The position numbers and the translations under genes were made by a program. The notes below the pieces were generated by a model. It was given only the letters and a program-made list of their open reading frames with translations, was not told where the DNA came from and searched no databases. 46,487 nt of DNA, from the NCBI GenBank assembly GCA_001600495.1, contig BCKE01000053.1, positions 238,625 to 285,111 on the forward strand, in the 5' to 3' direction. Each line of letters opens with the position of its first letter. Position 1 is the first letter of the stretch. This document shows positions 3,590 through 38,507 of this stretch, in pieces. The DNA is from Pilasporangium apinafurcum (lineage: Eukaryota; Oomycota; Peronosporomycetes; Pythiales; Pythiaceae).

Positions 3590-4578
3590 TGTTCTCTCTC
3601 TAGCATTCCGTGGTGAAGGGTGAGTCAGTCGCGAATTTTCTTCGACCATCACAAATAGCCAACCTGTGCCTCGAATTTCGATTGACTTCATCAAGTAATC
3701 ATGGGTAAAGGGAGACCACTCTTCACGCTCGAAGACGCCAAGGCGGCGTTCAATCTTTTCTGTTGCGTCTACGGCATCGGCACTCTCGGTATGCCCGGTA
3801 ACTTCTCCCAAGCCGGGCCAGTCCTCGCTACTATTGCGTTATGCTTCATGGCTTTTGCCAATGTCTACGCGTCTGTATGCATCTGCAGAACGCTGCTAGA
3901 AGCGCCTCGCTCAGTCAAGACCTACGGTGATCTCGGAGAGTATAGCATGGGAAAAATCGGTCGATATTTGACCGTCATCTCTCAAATGGGTGTCTGTTTG
4001 TTGGTGCCATGTGCATTCCTTGTGCTTGGTGGCACCTTGTTGGACGATCTCTTTCCCGCTGCCTTCAGTCAGCGAACGTGGATCATCCTTATGGCTATTC
4101 TCGTACTTCCAGTATGCTTGACGCCCACTCTCAAGGAAGGAGCTGGAGCTGCTTTGGCTGGTTGCCTCGGTACACTCGTTGCCGATATCATTGGTGTGGC
4201 AGTACTGTTGCACGGTATGTCAGGTCATCCTTCAGTGCCTAAGCCTGATATTACCTTCAAGCAAGTAGCCAACACATTCGGTAATTTGGCTCTCGCTTAT
4301 GGTGCTGGTATTGTCATTCCGACTCTGCAACGTCAACATAGCGACCCAACGCGCATGCCTCGTGTGGTGTTCCTGACGCTTACGCTCATCTCAATTCTGT
4401 TTTTGGTGTTGGCATCTACTGCCTATTCTGCTGTGGGTTGTCAGATTTCGGGTAACTTGCTCTATTCAATCTACCCTGATGCCACCACAGGGTTGACTGA
4501 TCTTGGCTTTGCAAGTGACAAGGGTATTGTCATTATCGCGTTCTTGGGTATGCAATTGCACATCACGATCGCTTTCAA
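3590..4578 (+). repeat. near-perfect inverted duplicate with 14070-15058 (gene-conversion tract)
   Basis: The plus strand here equals the minus strand of 14070-15058, with paired positions summing to 18648. Every stretch I compared matches without a mismatch: the leader, most blocks of the coding region, and two alternate reading frames. Residues 1-294 of the two proteins are identical. At 3589 and again from 4579 the copies become clearly different although still homologous. The sharp edges inside homologous DNA suggest recent gene conversion. Confidence 0.85.
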
Positions 4579-5188
4579 TGTCGTCATCGCACCGGCGTTT
4601 TACCTGCTGGAGCGTATGGTCTTGGGCATGCACAAACGGTATGATACCCCAATGGACATCGAAGCTCCGACTTCAGCGGCTTATGCAAGCGTACAAACTC
4701 CGCAGAACGGTGAGATCATGCCCCGGCGCTCATCCAAGATGTCGATCATCTCCATGGCTGATATTGAGAAGGAATCACTCGAAGAAGACTTGGAATTGGC
4801 GGAATACAAGGGTGCCAATGTCATCAAGTACATTGTGCTCCGTGCTGCTGTGATTGTGATTTTGGTGATTGGGTCTGTTCTCGTGGATAGCCGACTTAGT
4901 GACCTCACTGATTTCACTGGTGCTTGGGCTCACTCACTCAGTTCCATTATCTTGCCTATCATATTCCACTTGAAGATGCGCTGGCGAAAGATCCCCATAT
5001 ACGAGAAGATTGTAGCCATCATCGTTGCCCTTGTTTGCATCGGATTTGGTTGCTATGTGACATACAACACCGGGAAACAGCTCTTTAATCCAGCAACAGA
5101 GTCACCGGACGATCCAGTGTTTCCATATTGTCATCCAGAAAACGAGTACGAGATCTACTATATCAAGGACAACTCCACTCGCTTGTAG
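3701..5188 (+). CDS. AAAP-family amino acid/auxin permease, copy A
   Basis: A 495-residue polytopic membrane protein of the amino acid/auxin permease family (Aa_trans), a proton- or ion-coupled amino-acid transporter of the plasma membrane or an endomembrane. A short cytosolic start (FTLEDAKAAFNLFCC) leads into the family's first-helix signature VYGIGTLGMPGN. I count about eleven hydrophobic segments. A charged loop lies at residues about 308-372 (SSKMSIISMADIEKESLEEDLELAEY), between the helices ending near 307 and starting near 375. The C-terminus is PYCHPENEYEIYYIKDNSTRL. No intron is needed. It is the inverted partner of copy B: residues 1-294 are identical, and the rest differ at scattered sites mostly in the loop. 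The substrate cannot be read from sequence. Confidence 0.92.
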   Translation: MGKGRPLFTLEDAKAAFNLFCCVYGIGTLGMPGNFSQAGPVLATIALCFMAFANVYASVCICRTLLEAPRSVKTYGDLGEYSMGKIGRYLTVISQMGVCLLVPCAFLVLGGTLLDDLFPAAFSQRTWIILMAILVLPVCLTPTLKEGAGAALAGCLGTLVADIIGVAVLLHGMSGHPSVPKPDITFKQVANTFGNLALAYGAGIVIPTLQRQHSDPTRMPRVVFLTLTLISILFLVLASTAYSAVGCQISGNLLYSIYPDATTGLTDLGFASDKGIVIIAFLGMQLHITIAFNVVIAPAFYLLERMVLGMHKRYDTPMDIEAPTSAAYASVQTPQNGEIMPRRSSKMSIISMADIEKESLEEDLELAEYKGANVIKYIVLRAAVIVILVIGSVLVDSRLSDLTDFTGAWAHSLSSIILPIIFHLKMRWRKIPIYEKIVAIIVALVCIGFGCYVTYNTGKQLFNPATESPDDPVFPYCHPENEYEIYYIKDNSTRL

Positions 5189-6082: not shown

Positions 6083-6505
6083 TGCCAGAAGGCTTGCCTC
6101 CAGTCACCCTCCACCTCTTTTGCTTTGTCTACGGCATCGACACTCTTGGTATCCCTGTCAAGTATGAAGGGACTCTATAGCTCCACTGTGCGCACTATAG
6201 TATAAGTTTATTCCAGACAGGGATTTCACCAAAAAGTCATCAAAATCCTACACTTTCTCCACGCAAGCAAGTTTGGGGAAGAAGAGAACAGAACGAAGCT
6301 TCTGGGATTAGACAAGAGTGAAACCCGACAAGCACCACAAATATGTCACGCGAAATCAAACCCAAGACAAGCAAATATAAAGAGCTACGGTGAAAGAGAT
6401 CTAGTCATTCCCATGATCGTTGTTGACCGGTACATCAAGCGTGCCGATGCCGTAGACATAGCAAAACAGGTAGAAGGAAACTGGATCAAGCTTGTAGGGC
6501 AGTAA
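6083..6505. repeat. fold-back unit 1 with AAAP-derived arms
   Basis: The left arm (about 6083-6165, plus) and right arm (about 6505-6425, minus) are inverted copies with roughly 75-80% identity. Both translate to the AAAP first-helix signature: LFCFVYGIDTLGIPVK on the left and SFYLFCYVYGIGTLDVPV on the right. Shared sequence starts outside the motif at CTGCC...CTTG..TCCAGT. The interior of about 260 bp shows no coding similarity to AAAP genes. It could be a MITE-like element carrying captured coding sequence, or a decayed head-to-head gene pair. Confidence 0.7.
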
Positions 6506-7080
6506 TACGGCTAGGTACTTTGGTATGACTAAATGAAATACTTCGTGAACGTATTTTCTCTCTGGTGATATCAACACTGGTCGGTATTTCATCGATATTT
6601 GATCTCGATATAAAAGGCATCAAGTGGAGGGAGAACCAAACTGAAGCGACATTGATAGCAACACTTAAATGTGACTGGTGGCCATTCAAAGTTGAAAATA
6701 AATTCCAACTATGCAACCATAAGCGATATTGCTCTGGGAATCCAAACAAGAGTGAGTTGCTGAAACGAGAAAAAGAACTAAAAAGTCTGTTGTGAAGAAT
6801 GTGGTGATTCATTCAATAACAAGAATTCTTTGTCCCAGGACAAGCGTAGTCATCATTACAAGAACTAATAGTCTGCAATTTGAACTCGAAGAACTGGACT
6901 GTGTGTTCTAAAATATATCAATTTTGAGCATCTGTTGACAGTACAAGTTAATCAACTTGCACTAGAGATTGCAGTTGGATCATAATTACTACTAGTAGCA
7001 TTGTCTGGCTTTTCTTCTGTGGTCACGTCTGTGCGGGTAGCAGCTTCTTACTTACCGAGTTCACACTTTCTGAAAACAAA
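6506..7080. other. intergenic, nothing recognised
   Basis: Short open frames only. No motif, RNA gene or clear repeat is visible. Confidence 0.4.
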
Positions 7081-7082
7081 CA

Positions 7083-7508
7083 TCAATCAACGCTATTGGG
7101 TGATGCTGCTAAGATCAACGAATGTAAATTTCCTCGTCTTCCTGGTTTTTTCACAATAGTTCTCTGACTTTTCATGCTCCATGCATACTTTTGGCTGTGA
7201 TTGAGAAAGAATGCTGTTTCATCCACTGCTATCCACTTTTCCCCTGTATGTTTGGACAATGATGACAGAAAATGACGTTGTTGTGTGCTACAGGCTTCTT
7301 GATAAGCAATGGAAGCCTTTTTGTACGTGATTTTATGTTCTAGCAAGATGCCCTGGACTATTCGTAGAGAGACATCAACGTCATACGTATTTTTCACGAA
7401 AACAACTCCGTCAGCAAGTGTGCTTGTATTACGGTTGAGAAAAAATTGACGAGCTGGTTGCGCTGGTTGCCATTCAATTTCCACAGGTGAGATCGATTGA
7501 GAGGTCAT
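7083..7508 (-). pseudogene. Tc1/mariner (IS630)-type DDE transposase fragment
   Basis: A 141-residue frame with the middle of an IS630/Tc1/mariner transposase. A helical stretch (SLRIVQGILLEHKITYKKAS) precedes KWIAVDETAFFLNHSQKYAW, where D96 of the VDET motif would be the first catalytic aspartate. It is followed by KKPGRRGNLHSLILAAS, as expected after the first strand. Full-length family members have over 300 residues and two more acidic catalytic positions downstream, which are missing. It is a truncated, inactive relic. Confidence 0.7.
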
Positions 7509-7665
7509 GCTGCAAACTTAACACCACTGAGCCAATGTTGAACGGTTCATTTGCTTATATCAAGAATCTCAGCTATTTTGTGGAGGTAAACCCTTAGGTC
7601 CGAAGACGAAAACAAATTTGTCGTTTAGCAGTTGAATTCATGACTATATATTTTTGTGGATAGGG

Positions 7666-7699
7666 ATGACATTCTCGGTGCCCTCCATATTAAATAATA
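7666..7699 (+). repeat. dispersed repeat copy, TGACATTCTCG type
   Basis: This copy begins ATGACATTCTCGGTGCCC and matches the sequences at 9126-9155 (same strand) and 41105-41132 (opposite strand). It lies about 1.4 kb before the inverted copy at 9071-9099, so it could be one end of an element enclosing the secreted-protein gene. Confidence 0.5.
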
Positions 7700-7771
7700 G
7701 CTGTATTTTTTGTATCGTTATGTGCAACTTACTTCAAAGGACAAGATACGAACACGTATCTCTGCCAACTC

Positions 7772-7966
7772 TTGCTCCATATTACCATCAACAATCATAT
7801 GCATTATTGCGATCGAAACAAGAATCGAGATAAGTATAATGCGCGGTGTAGAGAATTGAATTTATGTTCAAAGAAATGTGAAAAGTGTTTAGTTACATTT
7901 CCTACAGCAAATACCTTTTACAAACACAAAAAAGATGTAGTAGTGTCTAGAATGATCAATGTCTAG
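7772..7966 (+). other. short open frame with zinc-finger-like motif
   Basis: The frame has no ATG at its start and encodes CEKCLVTFPTANTFYKHKK, which resembles half of a C2H2 finger (C-x2-C-x12-H) with a poor second histidine. It is probably a fragment or chance, and no role is proposed. Confidence 0.2.
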
Positions 7967-8455
7967 TATTCGAACTGCCACCGTCTTCATTCATCATTAA
8001 AACATTCAATTCTTCACCACCAACTCGCCCCAACCAACAACGAAGACGAACCACCTATCATATATCGACCTTCAACCAAAACCATCATCGCCACAGCTGC
8101 CTTGCTTCCGCCACTCAAATGGGATGAAACGAAAACAGACGCGACCGAATGCACGACGGACGCCATCACCATTCAACACAGAAACAACAATCAACTTGAT
8201 GTCATCAAGTATCCAAGACATGACATGATATCCGACGTTCAACATCCGTCAATCACACACAAGTACAACAACTAGCAGCCGTCGCTTCCAAATCAACCAT
8301 TTTCCACGAAATGCACTNTGCATTCTCGTCTAGAAACGTCCCAATCACAACTCCTAGTGACAGCGACAGACTTTCACAACAATCCACCGAACACCACTGC
8401 TCTCCAAACCAACACAACGTTACTTGCTTCCAACTTCACAAGTCACAACAACACC

Positions 8456-8731
8456 ATGAAGTTCATTACCTTTGTTGTCACTGCGCTTATCGCTATCACT
8501 ACTGGTGTAGCATCCACCAATGCTGCAGTCAGCGATGACGTTGCTACTCCAGCCAATCCATCATNCGTCATCTCACCACAGGAAGCGCCACAAGCGATCA
8601 AGGAACTTGAACTTCCCAAGAGAATCACGCTCACTAATACTGCCGAGTATATCTCAGAACCAGCACAACAACAAACCGACAAGAAAGAAGTCGATCTTCA
8701 CGGTGCGCAATNCGATGACAAGAAGGAATGA
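8456..8731 (+). CDS. small secreted protein (first open part)
   Basis: 91 residues. MKFITFVVTALIAITTGVA is a clear signal peptide, probably cleaved after ASTNA. The mature part is acidic and lysine-rich (KELELPKRITLTNTAEYISE, DKKEVDLHG). Two ambiguous bases fall inside (8565, 8712). The frame ends at two consecutive TGA codons (8729-8734) and then stays open in the same frame for 55 more residues. I chose the ATG at 8456 because it starts the signal peptide; the upstream ATG at 8357 would bury it. A CCATTTTCCACGAAAT initiator-like run lies near 8297. The function is unknown; small secreted proteins of this kind are common in oomycetes. Confidence 0.65.
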   Translation: MKFITFVVTALIAITTGVASTNAAVSDDVATPANPSXVISPQEAPQAIKELELPKRITLTNTAEYISEPAQQQTDKKEVDLHGAQXDDKKE

Positions 8732-8734
8732 TGA

Positions 8735-8902
8735 GGAGGTTGGGGAGGCTCGAGTGGATTTGGACCATACCGCTTCGGATATAATTGCGGTGGCTGGGAA
8801 GGATGGGGTTACTCACTCGGTTACTGGAATACCTATGGTGCTGGATTGCACAGAGATGGCTGCAGACTTGGCATTCCCTTTGGCGGCCTCTTCTATTGCT
8901 AA
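8735..8902 (+). pseudogene. in-frame Gly/Tyr-rich continuation of the secreted protein after TGA TGA
   Basis: The frame directly continues the upstream protein past two TGA codons. It reads GGWGGSSGFGPYRFGYNCGG and goes on Gly/Trp/Tyr-rich with cysteines, ending in GIPFGGLFYC and a TAA. This composition resembles the tails of oomycete secreted glycine-rich proteins and is unlikely by chance. Each TGA is one G-to-T change from GGA (Gly), so recent inactivation is the simplest reading. Readthrough or a sequencing error are alternatives. Confidence 0.6.
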
Positions 8903-9070
8903 ATTATCGGCACCNACTGTCGTTTGCACGCTTGGATTGGCCATCTCCAATACCATCGTTATGAATCAACCTCAAGAGCGCGTGGGCAGGATGCAGTGTT
9001 GTCGTAAACTATCGCCCGTTTCTCATTACTAAATAATCAACATCCGAGCTTTTTCGTATCATGCCTCTGC

Positions 9071-9155
9071 ATTATTGCCAAAGACATCGAGAATGTCACC
9101 GTAGGATTTATTTCGTGGCAGCAGAGTGACATTCTCGTTGCCCTTTGTAATAATT
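9071..9155. repeat. inverted repeat with CGAGAATGTCAC / GTGACATTCTCG core
   Basis: CGAGAATGTCAC at 9088-9099 and its exact complement at 9126-9137 are 26 bp apart, with weaker matching extending outward over about 29 bp per side (ATTATT...AAAG). The right arm also matches 41105-41132 in inverse orientation, differing at about two of 28 positions. These look like element termini. Confidence 0.55.
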
Positions 9156-9635
9156 CATAGTGCTGATATTGGAGCTGATGTTCTGATTTCTTGGATGAAT
9201 AGAATTACTAGAATCATAATTTGATCAGCTACATCAGCACATCAATAACTGCAGTAGCTAGATATGTAGCCATGTTATCAGCATTTGTTTGCTTCTCGAG
9301 CACGATGATTGGCTCGTTTCGTATCTTAGATGTCAACAGCGAGCAAACTTAGGTTCCTCGAGTCATATATCCTCAACTTCATATACAATCGTTTGTGCAT
9401 CATCGTGTGCTACGTAAGCTGCTGATGCTTAGTTTTAGTTGTGAATATTTGTTGTTGTTGGCGTGTCTACAAGCAGATGCCAGGAATGAACAAGTTCGGT
9501 GTTCGAAATCAGATGAGAGAAGAAAAACAATGTGACGCCGTTATGCTGGCAATTGAAGACTAAGCTATCAATGGGATTGCGGGAGGCTTGTGTTTGGGCC
9601 CAAGCGTGAGGCGTTAAACAGCGTGTCCAATTTGT

Positions 9636-10030
9636 TCAACATTGCTGCCGACGCTGAATGAGCAATTCAGATACCATGCCGACTTTCTTATATAAAACCC
9701 ACGCATTATGCTCAACAAGTAGATCAAACGTCAAAAATCCACATTTTGAAAAATCCATCCAATCTTGTTGTTTGGATGGGGTACAAGAGACATGAGACAA
9801 TGCTTTTCGATTCGTTTCCAACTTTGGGTCGCTGAGTGCATCTTCAACGAGGCGCGAACTCGTTTGATGTGTAAACGAAACACCCATCTGCATTTGCCCA
9901 TAGTAGTCCAGCAGATCTCCACAGAAAAATCCGCCTTTATCCAGCATTCAAGGTAAAAAAACACTACCACGGAACTTGGACTTGTCTTGGGTGCGCTGAG
10001 TAAAACCCGTTGAATGAAAAATCCATCCAA
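9636..10030 (-). pseudogene. possible decayed gene in two frames
   Basis: Two overlapping minus-strand frames of about 100 residues exist. One contains GGFFCGDLLDYYGQMQMGVS, then QQDWMDFSKCGFLTFDLLVE. I do not recognise a family. It may be a broken gene or noise. Confidence 0.2.
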
Positions 10031-10176
10031 TCGCTTTGATTCGACGCAATCGCCACCTTCAACAGCAGCGTGTTCGGCGTGACATGCTACAGTGGCAACG
10101 TATTCAAATGGTGTGCAGACGAACCATGCCAGCGATTATGTCAGCATCCAGTATGGGATGACTGATAGGTGCTGTT

Positions 10177-10193
10177 GTCATTCTCAAATTTCC
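10177..10193 (+). promoter_or_regulatory. oomycete-type initiator for SWEET gene 1
   Basis: GTCATTCTCAAATTTCC matches the oomycete initiator pattern and lies 57 bp before the ATG at 10250, which supports starting the gene in the upstream exon. Confidence 0.5.
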
Positions 10194-10249
10194 TCATTGG
10201 CCACCAAGTCTGTCTATTTAAAAGCAAAGCACCGCATACACACGCAATC

Positions 10250-11116
10250 ATGGGCTTTTGGCTCGTTTTCTTGAAATCCATGGCCTCAATTTCGTCGGTC
10301 GTTATGTGTCTCAGTCCGTCGCCATCGATTTACCGCATTCACAAGCAACAAAGCACAGGCGTCGTGCTCGTACCACCACTCGTGTCTTTCTTCTTCAATT
10401 GCTATGTCTGGTAAGAAAATATGGTACTGTGGCTAGCTGACTCACACACTAATCCCTTTTTCTTTTCCGTCGATTGCATCAATAGTGTTATCTATGGCAT
10501 CGTCACGGGCAATTACTTTCCAATAGTGGTCACATATTCCATTGGGTTCGCACTTAGTCTCGTCTACCTCGGCGTTTACTTCCGCTGGACCCCAGAGCGC
10601 GCCTACGTGGCCAAGCTCATCATGCTTGCTGTAGTCGTGATGGCGGCAGCCACTGTGTATACGATTCTGGGTAAAGCAGGCTACACGGGTCAGTCCTCGA
10701 GTGATGTCAATGACGTGGTTGGGTACATGACTGCTGCGGCTAGTGTGCTCATGTACGCATCACCACTTGAGGTGATCAAGAAAGTGATCACAACCAAGTC
10801 TGCCGCTCCTATCCCTATCGCGTTGTGCCTCGCAGGCACGATCTGCAACACGTTGTGGGTTATCTACGGCCTCGTGATTGACGATTTCTTTGTCTTCTTC
10901 CTTGGTGTCGTTTGTGCTGTTCTGGGGGCCATTCAAGTCGTGCTATATATGCTCTACAATCCAGCTCGCATTGCTGAAGGACATACACTGACTGCTCCAG
11001 CGGTGAATGGGAGGAACAGTAAGTACGAATTACCAGTCTCGGTGCAAGAGACGCGCTATCAAACGTCCAGCCCGTGTTTCGAATCGATGTCTTCACCGCT
11101 TGCTTCACGGGTGTGA
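10250..11116 (+). CDS. SWEET sugar transporter 1 (two exons)
   Basis: Exon 1 is 10250-10410 and exon 2 is 10486-11116; the spliced protein has about 263 residues. SWEET/MtN3 proteins are seven-helix sugar uniporters (two PQ-loop triple-helix bundles). Exon 1 gives SSVVMCLSPSPSIYRIHKQQ, with the conserved SP..Y..hk segment, then PLVSFFFNCYV. Exon 2 gives VIYGIVTGNYFP, YFRWTPERAY, the second repeat MYASPLEVIKKVITTKSA.PIP, and LCLAGTICNTLWVIYGLVIDD. The intron (10411-10485, GTAAGA...ATAG) matches SWEET 2 in position and phase. Splicing makes Cys where SWEET 2 and most family members have Trp before .(V/I)YG. The C-terminal tail ends SSPCFESMSSPLA. Confidence 0.85.
10411..10485 (+). other. 75-bp phase-2 intron of SWEET 1
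   Basis: GT-AG boundaries restore the frame between NCYV and VIYG. The same site carries a 77-bp intron in SWEET 2. Confidence 0.8.
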
Positions 11117-11284
11117 GGGCAAAATCCAAGAGCTAAAGACGACTTATAGGCGCTATCTATGTGAGTACTAGTAAGATGCAACAAGAATTTAAGCATAAGT
11201 TGCATATATTTGACATGTAAATTGTTTTTATCAAGTTAGTGTTTAAACAATAAAGCTTTACAATTCATGTCACGATCTGATATC

Positions 11285-11632
11285 TTCTTGAACTCTCTTC
11301 AATCGATTTTGCTTTGTCTACGGTATTAGTACACTTGATATATCTTCCATTCATACGGTATCTCCACATGGACCGTCTTCGCTTCAATGACTCCGATGAA
11401 CCTAAAACGAAACCAAAGGGTCATCTCATACTTGACCTTGTTCGTTCATCAATCAGCAATAAGGGAAACGCACTGAACTTGGCCATTTACGTTCATATCT
11501 AGTTGTTGACGACTGCTAAAACCACTTAATCCATCAATTGTATGTTGGTCGTTGTATATACATGGCAGGTATAGCAAGAGAACCAATGCCGAAGACATAG
11601 CCGAAGCGATTGCAGGAAGTAAAGGGATCTTC
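11285..11632. repeat. fold-back unit 2 with AAAP-derived arms
   Basis: The left arm (about 11296-11352, plus) reads FNRFCFVYGISTLDIS. The right arm (about 11620-11561, minus) reads CNRFGYVFGIGSLAIPAM. The two arms pair as inverted copies at roughly 70% identity and converge on about 200 bp of unrelated sequence. It is the most diverged of the three such units in the window. Confidence 0.6.
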
Positions 11633-11639
11633 AAGATCA

Positions 11640-12265
11640 CTACTACAATGAGTGCATTGCTCTTTGCAACAACTTGAGTCGAATGTGGTTAATTAAAGAT
11701 TGCAGATGACGCAATCTGGGAACGCATAAAGGAACATTTGGTATCTGTCCAAATATTAATGAAAATCAGTATGTGCACATCGAAACAATACTGAGACGGG
11801 TTGGATGACCTCAGCTAATCAAGTATTGGATCAAGTTAATAATACCGACATTCACTCTTCGGTCGTATCATCCTATCTGGTGGATTGGAAGAGTACAACA
11901 ACCGATCAACAAAAGCCGTTCCTCATCTCCAGTATTGCACAATTATCAGATCAATAGAGTGTTTGTGCATTCCTTATTGGCAAGACGCATACTGGTGTCA
12001 GTGCCATTATTGTAGTGGTAAATTTCTTGTAGTGAACTTGCAAAAAATATATTAGGAATTTTGACTGGTACCAAGATAATATCAGTGGTATCTCATGATT
12101 CCATGCGCAGCACCAGTCCATTACCTCAGCCTGTATTTTGCTGCAGTCTAGTTTAATCTTGCCGAAAAGCAATTTCCTGCAATCGTATATGGTCTACAGA
12201 GGAGAAGGACAGGAAGGAGACCAAAGAATTGGTATATTTCACTTCTAGCGATGAGCTAAAGAATA
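11640..12265. other. intergenic, nothing recognised
   Basis: AT-rich DNA between two fold-back units. Only short frames without motifs. Confidence 0.4.
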
Positions 12266-12269
12266 TATT

Positions 12270-12668
12270 CTACAAAGTGGATTACTTTGCTCCAGCTTCC
12301 TTCTACCTATTTTGCTGTGTCTACGGTATCGGTACGCTTCATATATCTGCCACCAACAATTACAGGGTCCCATATGCGTGCTTTACTTTCTCCAGTTTGT
12401 CGGGCAAATTCTCGTTCTTGTATCGTATCGTAGCTTTTTATTGTCTTTCTCCTGGCATGTTTGACTTCAATAAAGAGCTCGATGGATGTTGATTGCGCAT
12501 TTGTCACTGGTAAACACTGGTACACGTCGATTACATAGTGAACTTGACGATAGAAGGCGAAAAATAGCGAAGTGGGCCATGCATACTTGGGCAGAGACAC
12601 GAAGTGTGCCGATACAGTAGACAAAGCAGAGTAGGTAGGAGGAAACTGAAGCCAGATCCTCAGACAGC
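12270..12668. repeat. fold-back unit 3 with AAAP-derived arms
   Basis: The left arm (about 12280-12345, plus) reads PASFYLFCCVYGIGTLHIS. The right arm (about 12660-12590, minus) reads SVSSYLLCFVYCIGTLRVS. Arm identity is near 80% over about 63 bp, and they face each other across about 245 bp. The SFYLFC start is shared with the right arm of unit 1, so the units are related as elements as well as by the AAAP motif. Confidence 0.7.
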
Positions 12669-13462: not shown

Positions 13463-14947
13463 TTAAAAACGTGTGGAGTTGTCCTTGATATAGTAGATCT
13501 CGTACTCGTTTTCTGGACGGCAGTATGGGAACACTGGATCGTCCGGTGACGTTGGGTCGGGGTTGAAGAGCTCCTTACCAGCGTTATACGTCACATAGGC
13601 GCCGAACACGATGCAGATAAGGGCAACGATGATGGCTACAATCTTCTCGTATATGGGGATCTTTCGCCAGCGCACCTTCAAGTGGAATATGATAGGCAAG
13701 ATAATGGAACTGAGTGAGTGAGCCCAAGCACCAGTGAAATCAGTGAGGTCACTGAAGTGGTCGTCGACTAACACGGACGCGATGACCAAAATCACAATCA
13801 CGACAACACGGAGCACAATGTACTTGATGACATTGGCACCCTTGTATTCCGCCAATTCCAAGTCTTCTTCGAGCGATTCCTTCTCAATATCAGCCATGGA
13901 GACGATCGACATCTTGGAAGTGCGCGCCTTGATTTCACCGTTCTGCGGAGTTTGCACATTCTCATACGCAAGCGATGCTGGAGCCTCAATATCTGCATGG
14001 CTGTGATTCTTTTGGTGCATACCCAAGACCATACGCTCCAGCAGGTAAAATGCGGGGGCAATGATAACGTTGAAAGCGATCGTGATGTGCAATTGCATAC
14101 CCAAGAACGCGATAATGACAATACCCTTGTCACTTGCAAAGCCAAGATCAGTCAACCCTGTGGTGGCATCAGGGTAGATTGAATAGAGCAAGTTACCCGA
14201 AATCTGACAACCCACAGCAGAATAGGCAGTAGATGCCAACACCAAAAACAGAATTGAGATGAGCGTAAGCGTCAGGAACACCACACGAGGCATGCGCGTT
14301 GGGTCGCTATGTTGACGTTGCAGAGTCGGAATGACAATACCAGCACCATAAGCGAGAGCCAAATTACCGAATGTGTTGGCTACTTGCTTGAAGGTAATAT
14401 CAGGCTTAGGCACTGAAGGATGACCTGACATACCGTGCAACAGTACTGCCACACCAATGATATCGGCAACGAGTGTACCGAGGCAACCAGCCAAAGCAGC
14501 TCCAGCTCCTTCCTTGAGAGTGGGCGTCAAGCATACTGGAAGTACGAGAATAGCCATAAGGATGATCCACGTTCGCTGACTGAAGGCAGCGGGAAAGAGA
14601 TCGTCCAACAAGGTGCCACCAAGCACAAGGAATGCACATGGCACCAACAAACAGACACCCATTTGAGAGATGACGGTCAAATATCGACCGATTTTTCCCA
14701 TGCTATACTCTCCGAGATCACCGTAGGTCTTGACTGAGCGAGGCGCTTCTAGCAGCGTTCTGCAGATGCATACAGACGCGTAGACATTGGCAAAAGCCAT
14801 GAAGCATAACGCAATAGTAGCGAGGACTGGCCCGGCTTGGGAGAAGTTACCGGGCATACCGAGAGTGCCGATGCCGTAGACGCAACAGAAAAGATTGAAC
14901 GCCGCCTTGGCGTCTTCGAGCGTGAAGAGTGGTCTCCCTTTACCCAT
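13463..14947 (-). CDS. AAAP-family amino acid/auxin permease, copy B
   Basis: A 494-residue single-exon permease, the inverted partner of copy A. Residues 1-294 are identical to copy A. After that the protein differs in the cytosolic loop (HQKNHSHADIEAPASLAYEN versus HKRYDTPMDIEAPTSAAYAS) and at scattered sites in the last helices (RVVVIVILVIASVLVDDHF). The C-terminus PYCRPENEYEIYYIKDNSTRF is conserved. The promoter-proximal leader is also identical to copy A back to 15058. No frameshift is present, so both copies look functional. Shared leaders imply similar regulation, but this is inference. Confidence 0.92.
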   Translation of the reverse strand: MGKGRPLFTLEDAKAAFNLFCCVYGIGTLGMPGNFSQAGPVLATIALCFMAFANVYASVCICRTLLEAPRSVKTYGDLGEYSMGKIGRYLTVISQMGVCLLVPCAFLVLGGTLLDDLFPAAFSQRTWIILMAILVLPVCLTPTLKEGAGAALAGCLGTLVADIIGVAVLLHGMSGHPSVPKPDITFKQVANTFGNLALAYGAGIVIPTLQRQHSDPTRMPRVVFLTLTLISILFLVLASTAYSAVGCQISGNLLYSIYPDATTGLTDLGFASDKGIVIIAFLGMQLHITIAFNVIIAPAFYLLERMVLGMHQKNHSHADIEAPASLAYENVQTPQNGEIKARTSKMSIVSMADIEKESLEEDLELAEYKGANVIKYIVLRVVVIVILVIASVLVDDHFSDLTDFTGAWAHSLSSIILPIIFHLKVRWRKIPIYEKIVAIIVALICIVFGAYVTYNAGKELFNPDPTSPDDPVFPYCRPENEYEIYYIKDNSTRF

Positions 14948-15058
14948 GATTACTTGATGAAGTCAATCGAAATTCGAGGCACAGGTTGGCTATTTGTGAT
15001 GGTCGAAGAAAATTCGCGACTGACTCACCCTTCACCACGGAATGCTAGAGAGAGAACA
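14070..15058 (-). repeat. partner of the 3590-4578 gene-conversion tract
   Basis: It matches 3590-4578 on the opposite strand without a mismatch in the blocks checked. Homology continues beyond 15058 toward 15200 at roughly 75%, so the tract edge is not the duplication edge. Confidence 0.85.
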
Positions 15059-16914: not shown

Positions 16915-17307
16915 CTAAACCCGAATGGGTTCTGCAAACATTTTTTCTCTGCATGAGAGTTCTTCTACTAGGTACGACTGTTCATTGTTTATGATGTTCC
17001 GTAAATAAAAGGATTTACCAAACTTGAAAGAAAGAGTACCAGTCACTTTTCTGAAGTCACTAAAGAGAAACATCTCAGGTGTAGAAATTTGTATTTTAGA
17101 TTGGACTGCTTGGAATATGACTTGTTCTTGTGAAGCGACTGGTGCGCTATGATGGCACGATCGAATGTATTTACATTGCACGATATCATTCATGAGTCTT
17201 TTTTAATTGGTTATTTACCATATCTCACTCAAGTTTAAAAGATCTGGCAAGTCTAAAGCGCATACACACATGATAGTTTGCAATTCTCTGTCAATCAAAA
17301 ATCACCA
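16915..17307 (-). pseudogene. Fanzor lineage F1 relic, 5' end only
   Basis: The minus strand from 17307 to 17119 is identical to 20175-20363, including the upstream leader and MNDIVQCKYIRSCHHSAPVA. After residue 24 the frame continues into sequence (IFQAVQSKIQISTPEMF...) not shared with the other copy and lacking RuvC motifs. It is a severely deleted element keeping its left end. Confidence 0.55.
17119..17307 (-). repeat. 189-bp perfect inverted repeat (with 20175-20363)
   Basis: Positions pair with a sum of 37482. Mismatches begin at 17308 and 17118. The repeat holds the putative left end, leader and first codons of Fanzor lineage F1. With its partner it encloses AAAP copy C. Confidence 0.85.
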
Positions 17308-17339
17308 TGAATGTTGCTGTTAGTATGCAGTCTGAATGC

Positions 17340-17500: not shown

Positions 17501-17523
17501 CTACGAGAATACTGTTTGCAGTC

Positions 17524-17690
17524 AAATAACATTCTTACACTTACCATCCGTCTCCTTCGTGGACTTTCAAGACTATTAGAGTTAAGACGAGGAGAATAAA
17601 GCGCAGGTAGAGTATGCGTGGACAGCGGGAGAGTCTAACAACCTCTCAAACGCGTCCACACGGTTAGTCCGTATGCTGGTAACCGACAGT
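17524..17690 (+). pseudogene. Fanzor lineage F1 3' end fragment
   Basis: The plus strand reads NILTLTIRLLRGLSRLLELR ending in a TAA, matching the C-terminus of the relic at 20175-21275 (NILTLVMCVLRRLSRSLELQ). Similarity continues about 85-100 bp beyond the stop, to GGTAACCG.CAGTA. The post-stop sequence can form CGGTTA...TAACCG, also possible in the other copy. Fanzor guide RNAs come from this region in known systems. Confidence 0.55.
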
Positions 17691-17776
17691 ACCAAATTGG
17701 CAATTTTATGGATTATGAAAGAGAGTAGGAACAATAATACAGCCCAACTTCTATGCAATCACAAGCCTACTTTACT

Positions 17777-19246
17777 TTAATAACGTGTCGAATTGTCTTT
17801 GATGTAGTAAATCTTGTATTCATATTCTGGCGCGCAGTATGGGAACACCGGATCGTCAGAAGACGAAGGTGAAGGGCTAAAAAGCTCCTTGCCCGCGTTG
17901 TATGTTACATAGCAACCCAGGATGATGCACACGAACAACACCACAATCCCAGCAATTTTCTCGTAAAAGGGGATTTTCTTCCAGCTGACCTTCAGATAAA
18001 ACAAGATTGGCAAGACAATGGAGCTGAGCGTCGAGGCGCAGGCACCAGTGAAGTCTGTGAGGTCACTAAAATGGTCCTTGACAACCACTGACGCGATCAC
18101 CAAGACTACAACTACCGCAATACGCAGTACAATGTACTTGATAACGTTAGCACCTTTGTACTCGGCCAACTCGAGATCTTCATCTAACGGCTCATTCACG
18201 GTATCTGCCATGGATACGATGGACATCTTGGAGACGCGTGCCTTGATCTCCCCTTGTGGGGTCTGCATGGTCTCATAAGCAGCTGTTTCAACATCTACGG
18301 GCTTCTTCTGATGCATTCCAAGTAGCATGCGCTCCAGTAGGTAGAACGCTGGTGCGACGATGACGTGAAACGCGATCGTGATGTGTAGTTGCATACCCAA
18401 GAACGCCAACACGACGACGCCTTTGTCACTAGCGAAGCCAAGTGCGGTCAATCCCGTGGTCGCGTCTGGATAGATGGAGAAAAGCAAATTACCTGAGATC
18501 TGACATCCAATAGACGAATACGCCGTCGATGCCAAGATCATAAATAGACAAGAGATGAGAGCAAGCGTCACGAATACCACACGAGGCATGCGAGCGGGAT
18601 CGCTGTGTTGCCGTTGTAACGTTGGAATTACAATACCAGCACCATATGCAAGCGACAAGTTACCGAATGTGTTGACAACTTGTTTGAACGAGATGTCGGG
18701 TTTGGGCACTGATGGATGACCCGACATACCATGCATCAGTACCGTCACACCGAGAATATCGCCGACAAGCGTGCCAAGACAACCAGCCAGAGCAGCACCC
18801 GCTCCTTCCTTAAGAGTCGGTGTCAAACACACCGGCAACACAATGAGCGCCATCAAGATGATCCACGTCGTTGAGCTGAAGGCACCGGGAAAGAGGTCGT
18901 CCAGTAATGTGCCGCCAAGCACGAGAAATGCACATGGTACTAATAGACACGAGCCCATTTGTGCCACAACCGTTAAATAACGACCAATTGCGCCCATGCA
19001 CCACTCGCCGAGATCGCCATAAGTCTTGACTGATTGTGGCGCCAAGAGCATCGTTTTGCAAATGCAGAGGGACGCGTAAGTGTTTGCAGATGCCATAAAT
19101 ACCAATGCAATGGTCGCTAGTACAGGACCGGCCTGTGAAAAATTACCAGGCATCCCGAGTGTGCCGATACCATAGACGCAGCAGAACAGGTTGAACGCCG
19201 CCTTACTGTCTTCGAGCGTGAAAAACGGTTTGGCATCCTTCCCCAT
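17777..19246 (-). CDS. AAAP-family amino acid/auxin permease, copy C
   Basis: A 489-residue single-exon permease, clearly homologous to copies A and B along its length but diverged throughout, with no converted tract visible. It starts GKDAKPFFTLEDSKAAFNLF, keeps CCVYGIGTLGMPGN and the same helix pattern, has a shorter cytosolic loop (KKPVDVETAAYETMQTPQGE), and ends YEYKIYYIKDNSTRY. It lies inside the pair of 189-bp Fanzor-derived inverted repeats. It is intact and probably functional, with unknown substrate. Confidence 0.92.
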   Translation of the reverse strand: MGKDAKPFFTLEDSKAAFNLFCCVYGIGTLGMPGNFSQAGPVLATIALVFMASANTYASLCICKTMLLAPQSVKTYGDLGEWCMGAIGRYLTVVAQMGSCLLVPCAFLVLGGTLLDDLFPGAFSSTTWIILMALIVLPVCLTPTLKEGAGAALAGCLGTLVGDILGVTVLMHGMSGHPSVPKPDISFKQVVNTFGNLSLAYGAGIVIPTLQRQHSDPARMPRVVFVTLALISCLFMILASTAYSSIGCQISGNLLFSIYPDATTGLTALGFASDKGVVVLAFLGMQLHITIAFHVIVAPAFYLLERMLLGMHQKKPVDVETAAYETMQTPQGEIKARVSKMSIVSMADTVNEPLDEDLELAEYKGANVIKYIVLRIAVVVVLVIASVVVKDHFSDLTDFTGACASTLSSIVLPILFYLKVSWKKIPFYEKIAGIVVLFVCIILGCYVTYNAGKELFSPSPSSSDDPVFPYCAPEYEYKIYYIKDNSTRY

Positions 19247-20170: not shown

Positions 20171-20174
20171 CTCG

Positions 20175-21275
20175 TGGTGATTTTTGATTGACAGAGAATT
20201 GCAAACTATCATGTGTGTATGCGCTTTAGACTTGCCAGATCTTTTAAACTTGAGTGAGATATGGTAAATAACCAATTAAAAAAGACTCATGAATGATATC
20301 GTGCAATGTAAATACATTCGATCGTGCCATCATAGCGCACCAGTCGCTTCACAAGAACAAGTCGTGCGTTGATCACATTCACACCAGATCGATGAATCAG
20401 GAACGCAAGCGCGATGAGTGCGATGCTGATGCACCAACAGAAGATGGACTCAAATACTCGACCGTCACCATGAAGTAGGCGATGCCCTGCCACAATCCCG
20501 TCATCCAGCAAGAAGTAAATGACCGAGTACTGACGATGAAAAAAGTCCAGATCGAAGCCTGGCACGTCGCGAACCTGCATGTGCTTCGCTGTCTCAAGGA
20601 TAACATCCCGCTGACGGAATTCACTCACACATTTTTTACAGATGATGTACTGGTATGCTTTTACAAGCAAATGACAACCTAGCAAAAGCGTGCAGCGATA
20701 AAAATCTTAACGATATGCTTCTTGGCAAACTTTTACGCATCGCATCCATTTCGTAAATGGCATTTCCTTCAGTTCAGATTTAGTCGGAAGACGTTGGCAC
20801 ATCTGACAAAGCAGTTGGTACCCACATCGAGTCCTCAGGCTTGCATTACCGTTGGTGATTGAAGTCGACAGGACTTCATCAAGGGTCATGTGCACGGACT
20901 CGTGAAGCGGTTCACACATGAGCTGGCAACACATGCGACCGTGATGTAGATCGACGAGTATCGCATGAGTCATTGGTGCTCCAAGTGATATCAGCAGCTT
21001 GAAAAGATGATGGAAGTGCGGGTGTCGAACTCTCCCACTAGATTCTCCGCTGCAACAACAGCGAGTGCAGAATCACATGGGAGCGAGATGTTAATGCGTC
21101 GAAAAATATCCTTACACTTGTCATGTGTGTCCTACGCAGACTTTCACGATCACTAGAGTTACAACGACGACGAGTAGAATAGAGTGTAGAAGGAGTATTT
21201 GTGGGCAGCAAGAAAGTCTAGTAACTTCTCAAACGCGTCTACACGGTTTAGTCTGTATTGTGGTAACCGCCAGTA
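20175..21275 (+). pseudogene. Fanzor lineage F1 relic (TnpB-like nuclease), frameshifted and deleted
   Basis: Fanzors are eukaryotic homologues of the RNA-guided nuclease TnpB. The left leader is shared with 17119-17307. The N-terminal part is split over frames: MNDIVQCKY..., then RKRDECDADAPTEDGLKYST, then QIEAWHVANLHVLRCLKDNI (to 20682). The RuvC-I region is missing. The C-terminal part shows IDEYRMSHWCSK near 20950-20985, where the family has DEYRTS..CS.C. It then shows CNNSECRITWERDVNASKN, whose aspartate at 21087-21089 is the RuvC-III residue. Stops interrupt every part, so it is inactive. Similarity to 17524-17690 runs past the stop to about 21275. Confidence 0.65.
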
Positions 21276-21529: not shown

Positions 21530-21765
21530 GGAACACTTTACAACAAAGACTTGTTCTCAGTGTGGAAGAATCAACCACACGATTGAGCATCAGAAAGTCT
21601 TTTAGTGCCCTCACTGCAAGTTCATTCTCGATAGGGATGTCAATGCTGCGAGGAACATCTTTCTTAAGAATGAACACCTACTCTCCTGGACTCATCGAGT
21701 CCAGATGTCGGAGACACCTGCTCCACGGTGTCTAGTCTAAGGTAGCTTTTGTTAGTAAGTCGGGC
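21530..21765 (+). pseudogene. Fanzor lineage F2 C-terminal relic
   Basis: The plus frame reads CKEHFTTKTCSQCGRI, then a TAG, then CPHCKFILDRDVNAARNI. This is the TnpB/Fanzor zinc ribbon (CxxC...CxxC) followed by the RuvC-III DRDVNAARN motif, with the catalytic aspartate at 21637-21639. The 3' flank TGTCTAGTCT..GGTAGCTTTT is shared with both other F2 copies. The N-terminal two thirds are missing, replaced by the unrelated 21278-21527 repeat. Confidence 0.75.
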
Positions 21766-35734: not shown

Positions 35735-36520
35735 ACGCAAATCAGTTCTCAAGTTAGTTAGAAGAGAGTTAGCCAGCATGAATAGTCCATGATCATCCAA
35801 GCTTGGGCTGCTATTATTATTGGACGTCGATACACTTTTAAACGCACGTTTGAACAAGTAAACCAACTGTATAATCATCCACACAGCTAAAAGTGCGTGC
35901 ATTCTTCACATATCCTAACCGGTTCGCTCCGCTCGCAAAAGGAAAAACGCACACAACTTGGCATATCTTTACCAAGTAACTGGTTTCAAGATTGCCACTT
36001 TAGTGGGAATGAGCTCATCCAACTTATCCAGTCGCCCGGTCTCTCCCACTACTGAAGTATAGAATAACGCAGTAAGATACAGCCTTAGGATACATAGTCT
36101 CTGTACATGAAGAGATAGCTACTTCGATGTTGTTGCATCCATCATATTTAACGTAAAGGAATTGTTACAACCCACCTCTACACCATTATCACGCACCTCA
36201 ATATCCTAACTACGATGTGTCTTCGATAACTGGTCTGTGATTGGTTCACAATGACAGTAGTACATCGAAGCAGCCAGATGGCTGCATCCTCTGTGTCAAC
36301 GATGCTGAATACTCTCTACACAACATGACGCTATCCTCTCTTACTAACAAGCTGCCTGGAAAGATACTCTCATCTAGCATGCACTGTCGAAACTCCAGAC
36401 CAACAAACCAAGCAGACGCGCCTGACGTGAGAGCCATGTGATGAAAACATCCTCAGAAACTGCAAAGGCAAGGTTGATTCATTTCTCCACCTTTGCATAT
36501 GCGAACACAATCAGAGATGA
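35735..36520. other. intergenic, nothing recognised
   Basis: Short frames only. TAGTGGGA near 36001 and TCCCACTA near 36044 form a loose inverted pair. Confidence 0.4.
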
Positions 36521-36523
36521 TTC

Positions 36524-36539
36524 ATTCATTACAGAATTT
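36524..36539 (+). promoter_or_regulatory. oomycete-type initiator for GH6 gene 1
   Basis: ATTCATTACAGAATTT lies 31 bp before the ATG at 36570 and downstream of the more upstream ATG at 36438, which it therefore excludes from the transcript if used. Confidence 0.45.
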
Positions 36540-36569
36540 GCGCCCGTCGGACCATCACAATCCACCGAC

Positions 36570-38507
36570 ATGGTGCGCTTCTCCTTCGTAACCACTCTCT
36601 TCTATGGAGCTGCATTAAGTAGTGCTGTCTACGCTGACAGCGAGGAGCTTTGCTCGCTTGCGCCTGGAACATACGCCTCAGCAAAAATCACCTATCCAGC
36701 TGTGGCGTCTGCTCTCTCGAAATTAGAGAATTACTCAATCGCGACATGGTACACTGATCGAGACAGCACGTACGCCACCACTGCAGCGAATCTTGTGGCT
36801 ACTTGTCCCGAGTCTTCGCGGTTAAGTATCGTGGTCTATGGACTCCCCAATAAAGATTGTGACGCAGGCTACTCGTCCAGTGGTAGTGTAACCACCGCCG
36901 AGCAATATGAGGCATTTTTGACAGAATTGACTACCACCATTGGCGAACGGAAGGTGTTGTATGTCCTAGAACCTGATGCTGTCGGACTCTTGGCCGACAT
37001 CGATGGTTGTGGTGAAAGCGCTGGCTATCGTACCAACCTGAAGACGGCGACTAGTGTACTCTCAGCAAACCCAAATGCTGATATTTACTTGGACGTGGGC
37101 TACTGGACGCTCATGGACCCAACCAAAGCGGCCGCAGTGGTTGATGTCGTCACAGAACTGAGTGAAGCTGGACGAGTGAAGGGGATCACACTCAACACAG
37201 CTAATTATCGATCAACCGATGAGATGGCAGAGCTCTGCACGACGTTTCAGGAAGCAATGGGGTTGGAGGAAATGCACTGCATCGTCGACACGTCCCGTAA
37301 CTACAATGAGCCGCAATCGACCGAGTGGTGCAATGTGAAGCAGGCTGGTATTGGATTTCCACCCAGTGGATCAACCGGATATGCGAACCTAGACTATTTT
37401 CTCTGGATTAAGCCACCAGGCGAGAGCGATGGGACTTGCACCGATGGAAGTCACACGTCGGACTCGCTTGATGGTCCAGCTGCAGGTAGTTTTTTTGAGG
37501 AAGCGTTCACTTTGCTTTGGAATCAAGGCTACTTTGTCCAGCAACTTGGCATGCCGCAGATCGGTGATAACGCAGAGCAAACGTCGATACCAACTACATC
37601 TACACCAACGCCAGTACAGACACCATCACCAACAACTTCCATACCTTCTCCAACGACAGGAGAACCACAGACACTGGCACCAGTCACCCCGGCACCAGTC
37701 ACCCCGGCACCAGTCACCCCGGCACCAGAACCAACAACTTTCGCGCCTGCTCCCACTCAGACTGCAGTCACTTTAGCACCAACACCCACTACTAGCGAAC
37801 CGTGCCTCCCTACTGTGCCCTCATCAACTACGCCATCTGATATCCCTACTCCAGCTGCAACTGCTGTAGAGTTGATAACAGAATCTCCTGCTCAAGTAGT
37901 AATCTCGACAACACCAGAAGCTACCGCTACATCTGCTCCATTATCTGTTGTAAACAGCGGTAGTAGTGATGAATTAGCTGCTGGTCCGTCTATTTACGAT
38001 GGCGACAGCTCTGGGTCCGATAGTGAAGACGAAGGAGGTTCCAATAGCAGTGACAGTGCAATTAAAGCTGCTGCTGAACAACTCGCACTAGCTGGCAGTG
38101 ATATGAACGCTCAACTGGCTGCAGCCATTATGCTGCTTAGTCCGTTTGATGATATCGTGACTCCGACACCGACGCCGAAACGCACGACTCCTTCCCCAGT
38201 AGTGGTGGCTGCAAAAGCGGAGGCAACTCTTATATCAACTTCATCGCTCCGTTCAGCGGAAAAAGAATCAACTTCCTCTGCGGAGAGTGGATATGATGAA
38301 ACACAAACTGAAGCAACGACGACGGCTACATCTTCTGGTGGCGATACTGGCGTATCGGCTGGTGTCATTGGCGCAGCGTGTATGGTCGCAGGTGTCGCGG
38401 CAGTTGTAGCAGTGATGAGCGTGCGTGCTCGAAAGAAGCAGTTGAAAGAATCCAAGTCACCGGTAGTCAGTTGCACGCCGCAGATCAATTTCGTGTCAGT
38501 GCTCTAA
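36570..38507 (+). CDS. membrane-anchored glycoside hydrolase family 6 (cellulase-type)
   Basis: 645 residues. MVRFSFVTTLFYGAALSSAV is a signal peptide. The GH6 catalytic domain spans about residues 24-335 and would hydrolyse beta-1,4-glucan by inversion. Compared with Trichoderma Cel6A, Y90 and D96 lie in VVYGLPNKDCDAGYSS, D136 in VLEPDAVGLLA, D175 in YLDVGYW and D287 in KPPGESDGT, so the catalytic acid set is complete. A Thr/Pro-rich linker with APVTP repeats and a long Ser/acidic region (about 338-590) follow. Then comes a hydrophobic helix (about 597-618) with a basic stop-transfer RARKKQLK. The enzyme is probably displayed on the cell surface. The frame opens at 36438, but that start would hide the signal peptide. 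Confidence 0.9.
   Translation: MVRFSFVTTLFYGAALSSAVYADSEELCSLAPGTYASAKITYPAVASALSKLENYSIATWYTDRDSTYATTAANLVATCPESSRLSIVVYGLPNKDCDAGYSSSGSVTTAEQYEAFLTELTTTIGERKVLYVLEPDAVGLLADIDGCGESAGYRTNLKTATSVLSANPNADIYLDVGYWTLMDPTKAAAVVDVVTELSEAGRVKGITLNTANYRSTDEMAELCTTFQEAMGLEEMHCIVDTSRNYNEPQSTEWCNVKQAGIGFPPSGSTGYANLDYFLWIKPPGESDGTCTDGSHTSDSLDGPAAGSFFEEAFTLLWNQGYFVQQLGMPQIGDNAEQTSIPTTSTPTPVQTPSPTTSIPSPTTGEPQTLAPVTPAPVTPAPVTPAPEPTTFAPAPTQTAVTLAPTPTTSEPCLPTVPSSTTPSDIPTPAATAVELITESPAQVVISTTPEATATSAPLSVVNSGSSDELAAGPSIYDGDSSGSDSEDEGGSNSSDSAIKAAAEQLALAGSDMNAQLAAAIMLLSPFDDIVTPTPTPKRTTPSPVVVAAKAEATLISTSSLRSAEKESTSSAESGYDETQTEATTTATSSGGDTGVSAGVIGAACMVAGVAAVVAVMSVRARKKQLKESKSPVVSCTPQINFVSVL
37677..37722 (+). repeat. 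15-bp coding tandem repeat (APVTP), three copies
   Basis: GGCACCAGTCACCCC is repeated three times with no visible change, encoding APVTP units in the GH6 linker. Perfect repetition suggests recent slippage and possible length variation. Confidence 0.8.

Follow-up and report, generated by a model that had tools for sequence, protein, structure and literature searches.

What are three inverted pairs of one transporter gene segment doing between two intact genes of that transporter family? The question is raised by a 46,487-nucleotide stretch of the Pilasporangium apinafurcum genome (hereafter the window; C53:238625-285111 in a 36.5-Mb assembly of 136 contigs, with coordinates below given as window positions), where three fold-back units, U1, U2 and U3, all lie between the AAAP permease genes A and B. 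Our analysis of the DNA sequence suggests that U1-U3 are probably noncoding, microRNA (miRNA)-type hairpin genes that derive from an AAAP gene and silence AAAP permeases. The initial annotation of this stretch had offered two explanations, a mobile element that captured a permease fragment, or palindromes kept since their RNA silences the permease family. The second is supported by the sequence comparisons described here and has a close precedent in miR8788 of Phytophthora (PMC3804510).

The fold-backs themselves are real, as the initial annotation had proposed, and no other inverted repeat of this size in the window is as good. When the entire window was scanned without gaps for 58-nt inverted arms separated by 150-320 nt, U3 (47/58, at 12293/12591), U1 (46/58, at 6098/6429) and U2 (43/58, at 11292/11563) came out on top; the runner-up place reached 32/58, and the maxima in five block-shuffled windows were 33-34. 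The stems are about 70 bp long. On the + strand, the predicted folds of all three units beat every one of 100 dinucleotide shuffles (z -6.5, -3.0 and -7.8 for U1, U2 and U3), and on the - strand those of U1 and U3 have z of -7.5 and -6.5. Plant-style MIRNA criteria call for a guide/star duplex with at most five mismatches and a fold-back of less than 300 nt. Guide/star mismatches in U1, U2 and U3 number 3, 5 and 3 on the + strand and 2, 5 and 3 on the - strand (G-U not counted), which keeps each unit within five on both strands, while the fold-backs measure 273, 296 and 323 nt between the outer ends of the guide sites, two of them below the 300-nt limit and one above it. The positions of the units, of their arm cores and of the AAAP genes of the window are collected in Table 1.

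Table 1. Fold-back units, arm cores with their nearest AAAP gene, and AAAP permease genes of the window.
Feature	Position	Strand	Details
U1	6083..6505	.	arms 6089-6165 and 6419-6495; loop ~250 nt; inverted repeat I10, 63 nt, 81%
U2 (weakest unit)	11285..11632	.	arms ~11278-11354 and ~11558-11634
U3	12270..12668	.	arms 12281-12357 and 12584-12660; loop ~226 nt
U1 left core (columns 38-58)	6126..6146	+	2 mismatches to gene A
U1 right core (columns 38-58)	6438..6458	-	2 mismatches to gene A
U2 left core	11315..11335	+	2 mismatches to C17 gene at 394971
U2 right core	11577..11597	-	2 mismatches to C21 gene
U3 left core	12318..12338	+	1 mismatch to three C17 genes, identical at site
U3 right core	12603..12623	-	3 mismatches to gene C
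AAAP permease gene A	3701..5188	+	PF01490; segment homologous to miR8788 site ~3771-3792
AAAP permease gene B	13463..14947	-	homologous segment ~14856-14877
AAAP permease gene C	17777..19246	-	homologous segment ~19152-19173

Read in the AAAP frame, all six arms translate to variants of LFCCVYGIGTLGMP, the AAAP first-helix motif, with a stop codon shortly upstream of the motif in U2-left. The initial annotation was therefore right about what the arms contain, although the divergence of 20-30% that it gave is too narrow, arm-to-arm identity over 58 columns being 60-83% (17-40% divergence). Its further argument, that a shared SFYLFC stretch absent from the intact genes supports a common element, needs correction: the stretch is exact in U1-right and U3-left only, and it is not foreign to the intact AAAP family, since three of the four AAAP genes on contig C17 read ASFNLFC.

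Conservation among the arms is bell-shaped. The mean pairwise identity of the six arms is 84-86% in 10-column windows over columns 31-45 and falls to 21-36% past the arms, and invariant columns make up 17/30 of the core, 4/21 of the outer arm and 4/13 of the inner arm (core vs outer, Fisher P 0.01, with columns taken as independent and limits set post hoc). The local scores of four arm pairs lie above those of 200 shuffles, with z of 12.6-27.8. When U1 and U3 are aligned as mirror images, their arms are 71% and 82% identical, their loops 41.6% and the intergenic sequence 44-45%. Piecewise alignment gives 65% and 79% for the L1/R3 and R1/L3 arms (maxima of 12 shuffles, 50% and 49.1%), 54% for the loop (49.5%) and 46.6% for the intergenic sequence (44.4%); the loop and intergenic identities barely top the shuffles, so loops and flanks retain a mere trace. 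The arms are thus conserved while the loop is not, as in MIR8788, with a faint similarity kept in the U1/U3 loop.

This profile bears on two other explanations. The units could be long-hairpin loci of small interfering RNA (siRNA), whose transcripts would be cut without precision to give a mixed set of 21-nt RNAs directed at AAAP genes. The model for such loci is pin-IR2758, a 714-nt P. infestans inverted repeat that yields heterogeneous 21-nt siRNA, and its report suggests a continuum (PMC3804510). U1-U3 resemble pin-IR2758 as long inverted repeats with a putative link to a 21-nt pathway (PMC3804510), and their ~70-bp stems leave space for three registers. However, conservation here is focused, peaking at a single core of ~21-30 nt and not flat over the stem, and the accessible text on pin-IR2758 states no AAAP link (PMC3804510); we consider siRNA loci of this kind unlikely.

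The second explanation is neutral debris, that is, inverted pieces of decayed AAAP copies in a cluster turning over by duplication or conversion. Genes A and B, which are inverted relative to each other, are 100% identical over ~900 nt, which shows that rearrangement or conversion does occur in this cluster, and the arms are just 60-83% alike, with weak compensatory change. Elsewhere in the genome, the seven stretches with other AAAP loci hold no inverted pair (at least 30 nt, within 800 nt) built of the 5' motif, but inverted pairs of other kinds occur there: one of 32 nt at locus L020 and two at locus L021, at least one of the latter made of AAAP 3' ends, which lie 526-696 nt apart. Yet debris of this kind accounts poorly for arms that are far more similar than loops and flanks, and decay is not expected to be lowest in the central 21-30 nt, which makes it quite unlikely in our view.

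The match between arms and genes is centred in the same way. Measured against nine distinct AAAP sites, mismatches to the nearest AAAP gene go from ~12/21 at the outer edge to 2.0/21 at columns 38-59 and 5.3 at the inner edge, and the six arm cores carry 1, 2, 2, 2, 2 and 3 mismatches (Table 1, ties not shown). By these sequence matches, different arms are closest to different AAAP paralogues. Over a 22-column core, the U1 arms are 91% and 86% identical to genes A/B vs 77% and 82% to three identical C17 genes; U3-left matches three C17 genes at 81% over 59 nt (BLAST). Over the longer arm stretch, the C17 genes rank above the neighbouring genes: a profile built from the arms gives E values of ~3e-13 for the four C17 AAAP genes, 2e-9 for the C21 gene and 7e-8 for genes A and B; in the window and the seven other stretches, its matches below E 1 are the six arms and the same site in 12 AAAP genes, followed by eight weaker ones (E 1.1-9.8). 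Within the core (columns 30-59), pairwise comparisons of the arms differ at 46/150 third codon positions, vs 25/150 and 21/150 at the other two positions, and the lean is absent outside the core. Such a lean would be expected of a guide that tracks a coding target.

The most economical history starts from a single inverted duplication of the AAAP coding 5' end, the product of which was then copied locally. U1 and U3 may have arisen as mirror images jointly with genes A and B, since the sole notable non-arm similarities lie in mirror orientation (z 3.9 for the sequence upstream of U1 against that downstream of U3, and z 3.0 for the two loops, the best local matches in 20 comparisons); the order of U1/U3 and genes A/B agrees with a mirror-image duplication, but the better guide scores of the left arms (see below) break the mirror. 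A tree of 15 rows and 72 nt groups the arms with a support of 75, and the U1 and U3 arms with 93, and is not decisive. We rejected the idea that the arms are remains of longer hidden AAAP pseudogenes: the gene similarity of U3 in BLAST is confined to 59 nt, and the profile matches below E 1 stay at the arms and at the one gene site.

Copies of the units were sought across the whole genome with degenerate patterns that allow up to three mismatches, more diverged copies or copies in missing sequence lying beyond their reach. A 27-nt core pattern derived from the arms gave 15 matches, which are all six arms plus nine AAAP genes (genes A to C, four genes of C17 and one each of C7 and C21), a second core pattern gave 14 (five of the six arms and 9 AAAP genes), and an outer-arm pattern three (U1-right and both U3 arms); the reversed controls gave 0 in each case. 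Apart from the arms themselves, the near-matches in the genome are thus found at AAAP genes only. BLAST of the genome with each unit revealed no close copy, a weak support because the searches, with units or with one arm, were too insensitive to detect even the sister units and so exclude close copies only. The same method lists at least 40 copies for an ordinary dispersed repeat of the window.

These searches speak strongly against the first explanation of the initial annotation, a miniature inverted-repeat transposable element (MITE) with a permease fragment captured as its terminal repeats. The arms do face inward, and three copies do lie near each other; but the three patterns, at up to three mismatches, found no copies elsewhere, unit BLAST, which does find a dispersed repeat, found no close ones, and comparison of the units shows no clear common interior and no common flank outside the arms. 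We give this element next to no credence. The initial annotation had also counted similarity confined to the arms, together with a lack of other copies in the genome, against its own proposals. Both were seen, and neither refutes the reading of the units as miRNA-type genes, because that reading expects them.

The closest known system is miR8788, a 21-22-nt Phytophthora miRNA with conserved fold-back arms in P. infestans, P. sojae and P. ramorum and with 5, 11 and 11 AAAP transcripts as predicted targets in the three species; rapid amplification of cDNA ends (RACE) in P. sojae showed two AAAP mRNAs to be cleaved, with the cut between the canonical positions 10/11 in the first and 9/10 in the second (PMC3804510). 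In sense, the P. infestans miR8788 probe (PMC3804510) reads G-A-G-T-L-G. Among 120 relatives of gene A listed, 83 read YGIGTLGMP and 29 YGVGTLGMP, four carry other variants, four were unmatched by the search expression, and GAGTLG occurs in 0. We scored guides with our own TargetFinder-like scheme (lower scores are better; 60 shuffles), on 12 AAAP genes, the distant C23 copy and a C17 gene fragment being left out. A derived miR8788 guide has its best site in this AAAP motif in 11 of the 12 genes (that of gene C, at 9.5, lies elsewhere), with scores of 5.0 in three genes, 5.5 in two and 6.0 in one, the best of the 60 shuffles being 7.0.

Judged on guide sequence and published coordinates, U1-U3 resemble MIR8788 in the conservation of arms over loop and in having AAAP permeases as predicted targets at this motif; P. 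sojae also carries more than one copy, two ~4.5 kb apart on opposite strands (PMC3804510). They differ in that the first 15 guide nucleotides are not preserved (9-11 of 15 in the same register, and 11-15/22 for the whole P. infestans guide), in the length of the fold-back (273-323 nt here vs 136-140 nt by the published coordinates; PMC3804510), in the number of units, three, and in the best arm-gene register, ~5 nt from the miR8788 site. We do not file the units as MIR8788, since the tests of guide sequence and of fold-back length both showed a difference; on sequence, common descent and independent birth are both possible. Most likely, the units would function in the manner of MIR8788, their hairpins giving rise to small RNAs directed against AAAP permeases. 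In plants, MIRNA genes have been born through inverted duplication of their targets (PMC3237417). Like such genes, the arms here match their presumed targets well past 21 nt, as the 59-nt alignment of U3-left illustrates, but unlike them they occur in a stramenopile and take in no more of the coding sequence than its 5' end.

Several results weigh against the view that U1-U3 are target-derived miRNA-type genes. The core limits and the register 38-58 were picked post hoc, and uniform decay from one gene would leave a single arm with at most two mismatches at P 0.022 and at most three at P 0.073. Compensatory change is weak, the true arm pairs forming 145/174 pairs and five swapped pairings 136-144. 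Variable core columns number 5, 3 and 5 of 10 by codon position, without third-position bias, and the complementarity and third-position bias are in part an inheritance from a coding ancestor. U2 on the - strand has z -0.66, matched by 27/100 shuffles, an ordinary stability. As to miR8788, the other six genes score no better with its guide than shuffles do (five at 10.5-11.5), and the P. infestans guide is as similar to the gene sites (11-17/22) as to the arms, so that a shared site is shown and not shared descent of the hairpins. Finally, the loops are longer than in MIR8788, and an Rfam search of the window gave no family at E<=10.

The machinery that such hairpins would need is encoded in this genome. 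A 1490-codon open reading frame (ORF) combines two RNase III domains with a Dicer dimerisation domain, two RNase III domains sit on adjacent ORFs at another place, Argonaute is represented by one full ORF and by a second gene split over two adjacent ORFs, and RNA-dependent RNA polymerase matches occur on two contigs. Piwi-domain matches at C3:238134-238636 of the same genome (G000), in two pieces with several stops, are a broken additional Argonaute copy.

In the mechanism that we propose, the opening ~60-70 nt of the coding sequence of an AAAP permease would have been duplicated in inverted orientation, and the resulting fold-back would have given rise to local copies in the interval from gene A to gene B. 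Its transcript would fold on itself, a Dicer-like enzyme would cut ~21-22-nt duplexes from the stem, and Argonaute would retain the 3'-arm strand; being antisense to AAAP mRNAs in their first-helix segment, this strand would guide the cleavage of these mRNAs. With both arms facing inward, the 3' arm would be antisense to AAAP whichever strand is transcribed. In the miR8788 register, the best scores of the left arms (2.5, 1.5 and 3.0) are better than those of the right arms (4.5, 5.0 and 6.5), a hint that the units may be transcribed from the - strand, contrary to which U2 folds better on the + strand. For P. capsici, it is reported that miR8788 is not processed by DCL2, which implies DCL1 (PMC11062530).

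Besides AAAP permeases, the window carries SWEET-type transporters, GH6 enzymes (an adjacent pair at 36441-38507 and 39716-40963), zinc dehydrogenases and a 1104-codon ORF (42127-45441) for which no Pfam family passes the cut-off. The identical tract of genes A and B, which includes 100 nt upstream (3600-4499 / 14149-15048), is either a gene-conversion tract or an assembly effect; past it, identity is 71-99% per 100 nt. Gene C is flanked on both sides by a 192-nt inverted pair, 99% identical (17119-17310 / 20172-20363), a dispersed repeat with at least 40 genome copies (40 scored of 154 candidates). Diverged direct repeats (D8, D9, D17; 74-86%) lie at 17521-17691 / 21098-21275, the second copy upstream of a 43-codon open piece (21606-21734) that matches the end of a Cas12f1-like TNB domain (PF07282, E 4e-6, 27.2 bits, cut-off 26.3) and is perhaps, we presume, the remnant of a TnpB/Fanzor-like gene.

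Among the matches listed, the closest relatives of gene A are 68% identical and come from Globisporangium, while AGO1 is 73% identical to Nothophytophthora, 69-73% to most Phytophthora matches, 71% to Globisporangium and 62% to Albugo, with no more than 74% across the 120 matches listed. By these identities, the host is an oomycete near those genera and has no close relative among the sampled ones. As late as 2024, miR8788 was described as the only confirmed oomycete miRNA (PMC11062530). It had gone undetected in a 2023 survey that covered six oomycetes, including three Phytophthora, and that took most such RNAs to be probably species-specific (PMC10080066). In the literature searched, subscription papers aside, we found no report of such hairpins outside Phytophthora. 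If our reading is right, four things would be new: the reach beyond the sampled Phytophthora, a cluster of three units amid the genes that they target, an origin from the target that can still be seen, and best matches that are spread across paralogues.

A broader proposal is that oomycete AAAP permeases are governed by hairpins born of their own 5' ends, either since before Phytophthora or by repeated rebirth, and that at this locus the hairpins divide the paralogues between them via third codon positions. We put this forward as a tentative and rather doubtful idea, given that the P. infestans guide resembles the gene sites no less than the arms. If true, it would mean that plant-like MIRNA gene birth occurs outside plants, with a race between guides and targets or a division of labour within one transporter family. 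Already a target-derived hairpin cluster at this AAAP motif, beyond the sampled Phytophthora, would mean that the relation between AAAP genes and hairpins is old or has arisen repeatedly, and would offer a testable non-plant case of miRNA genes born from their targets.

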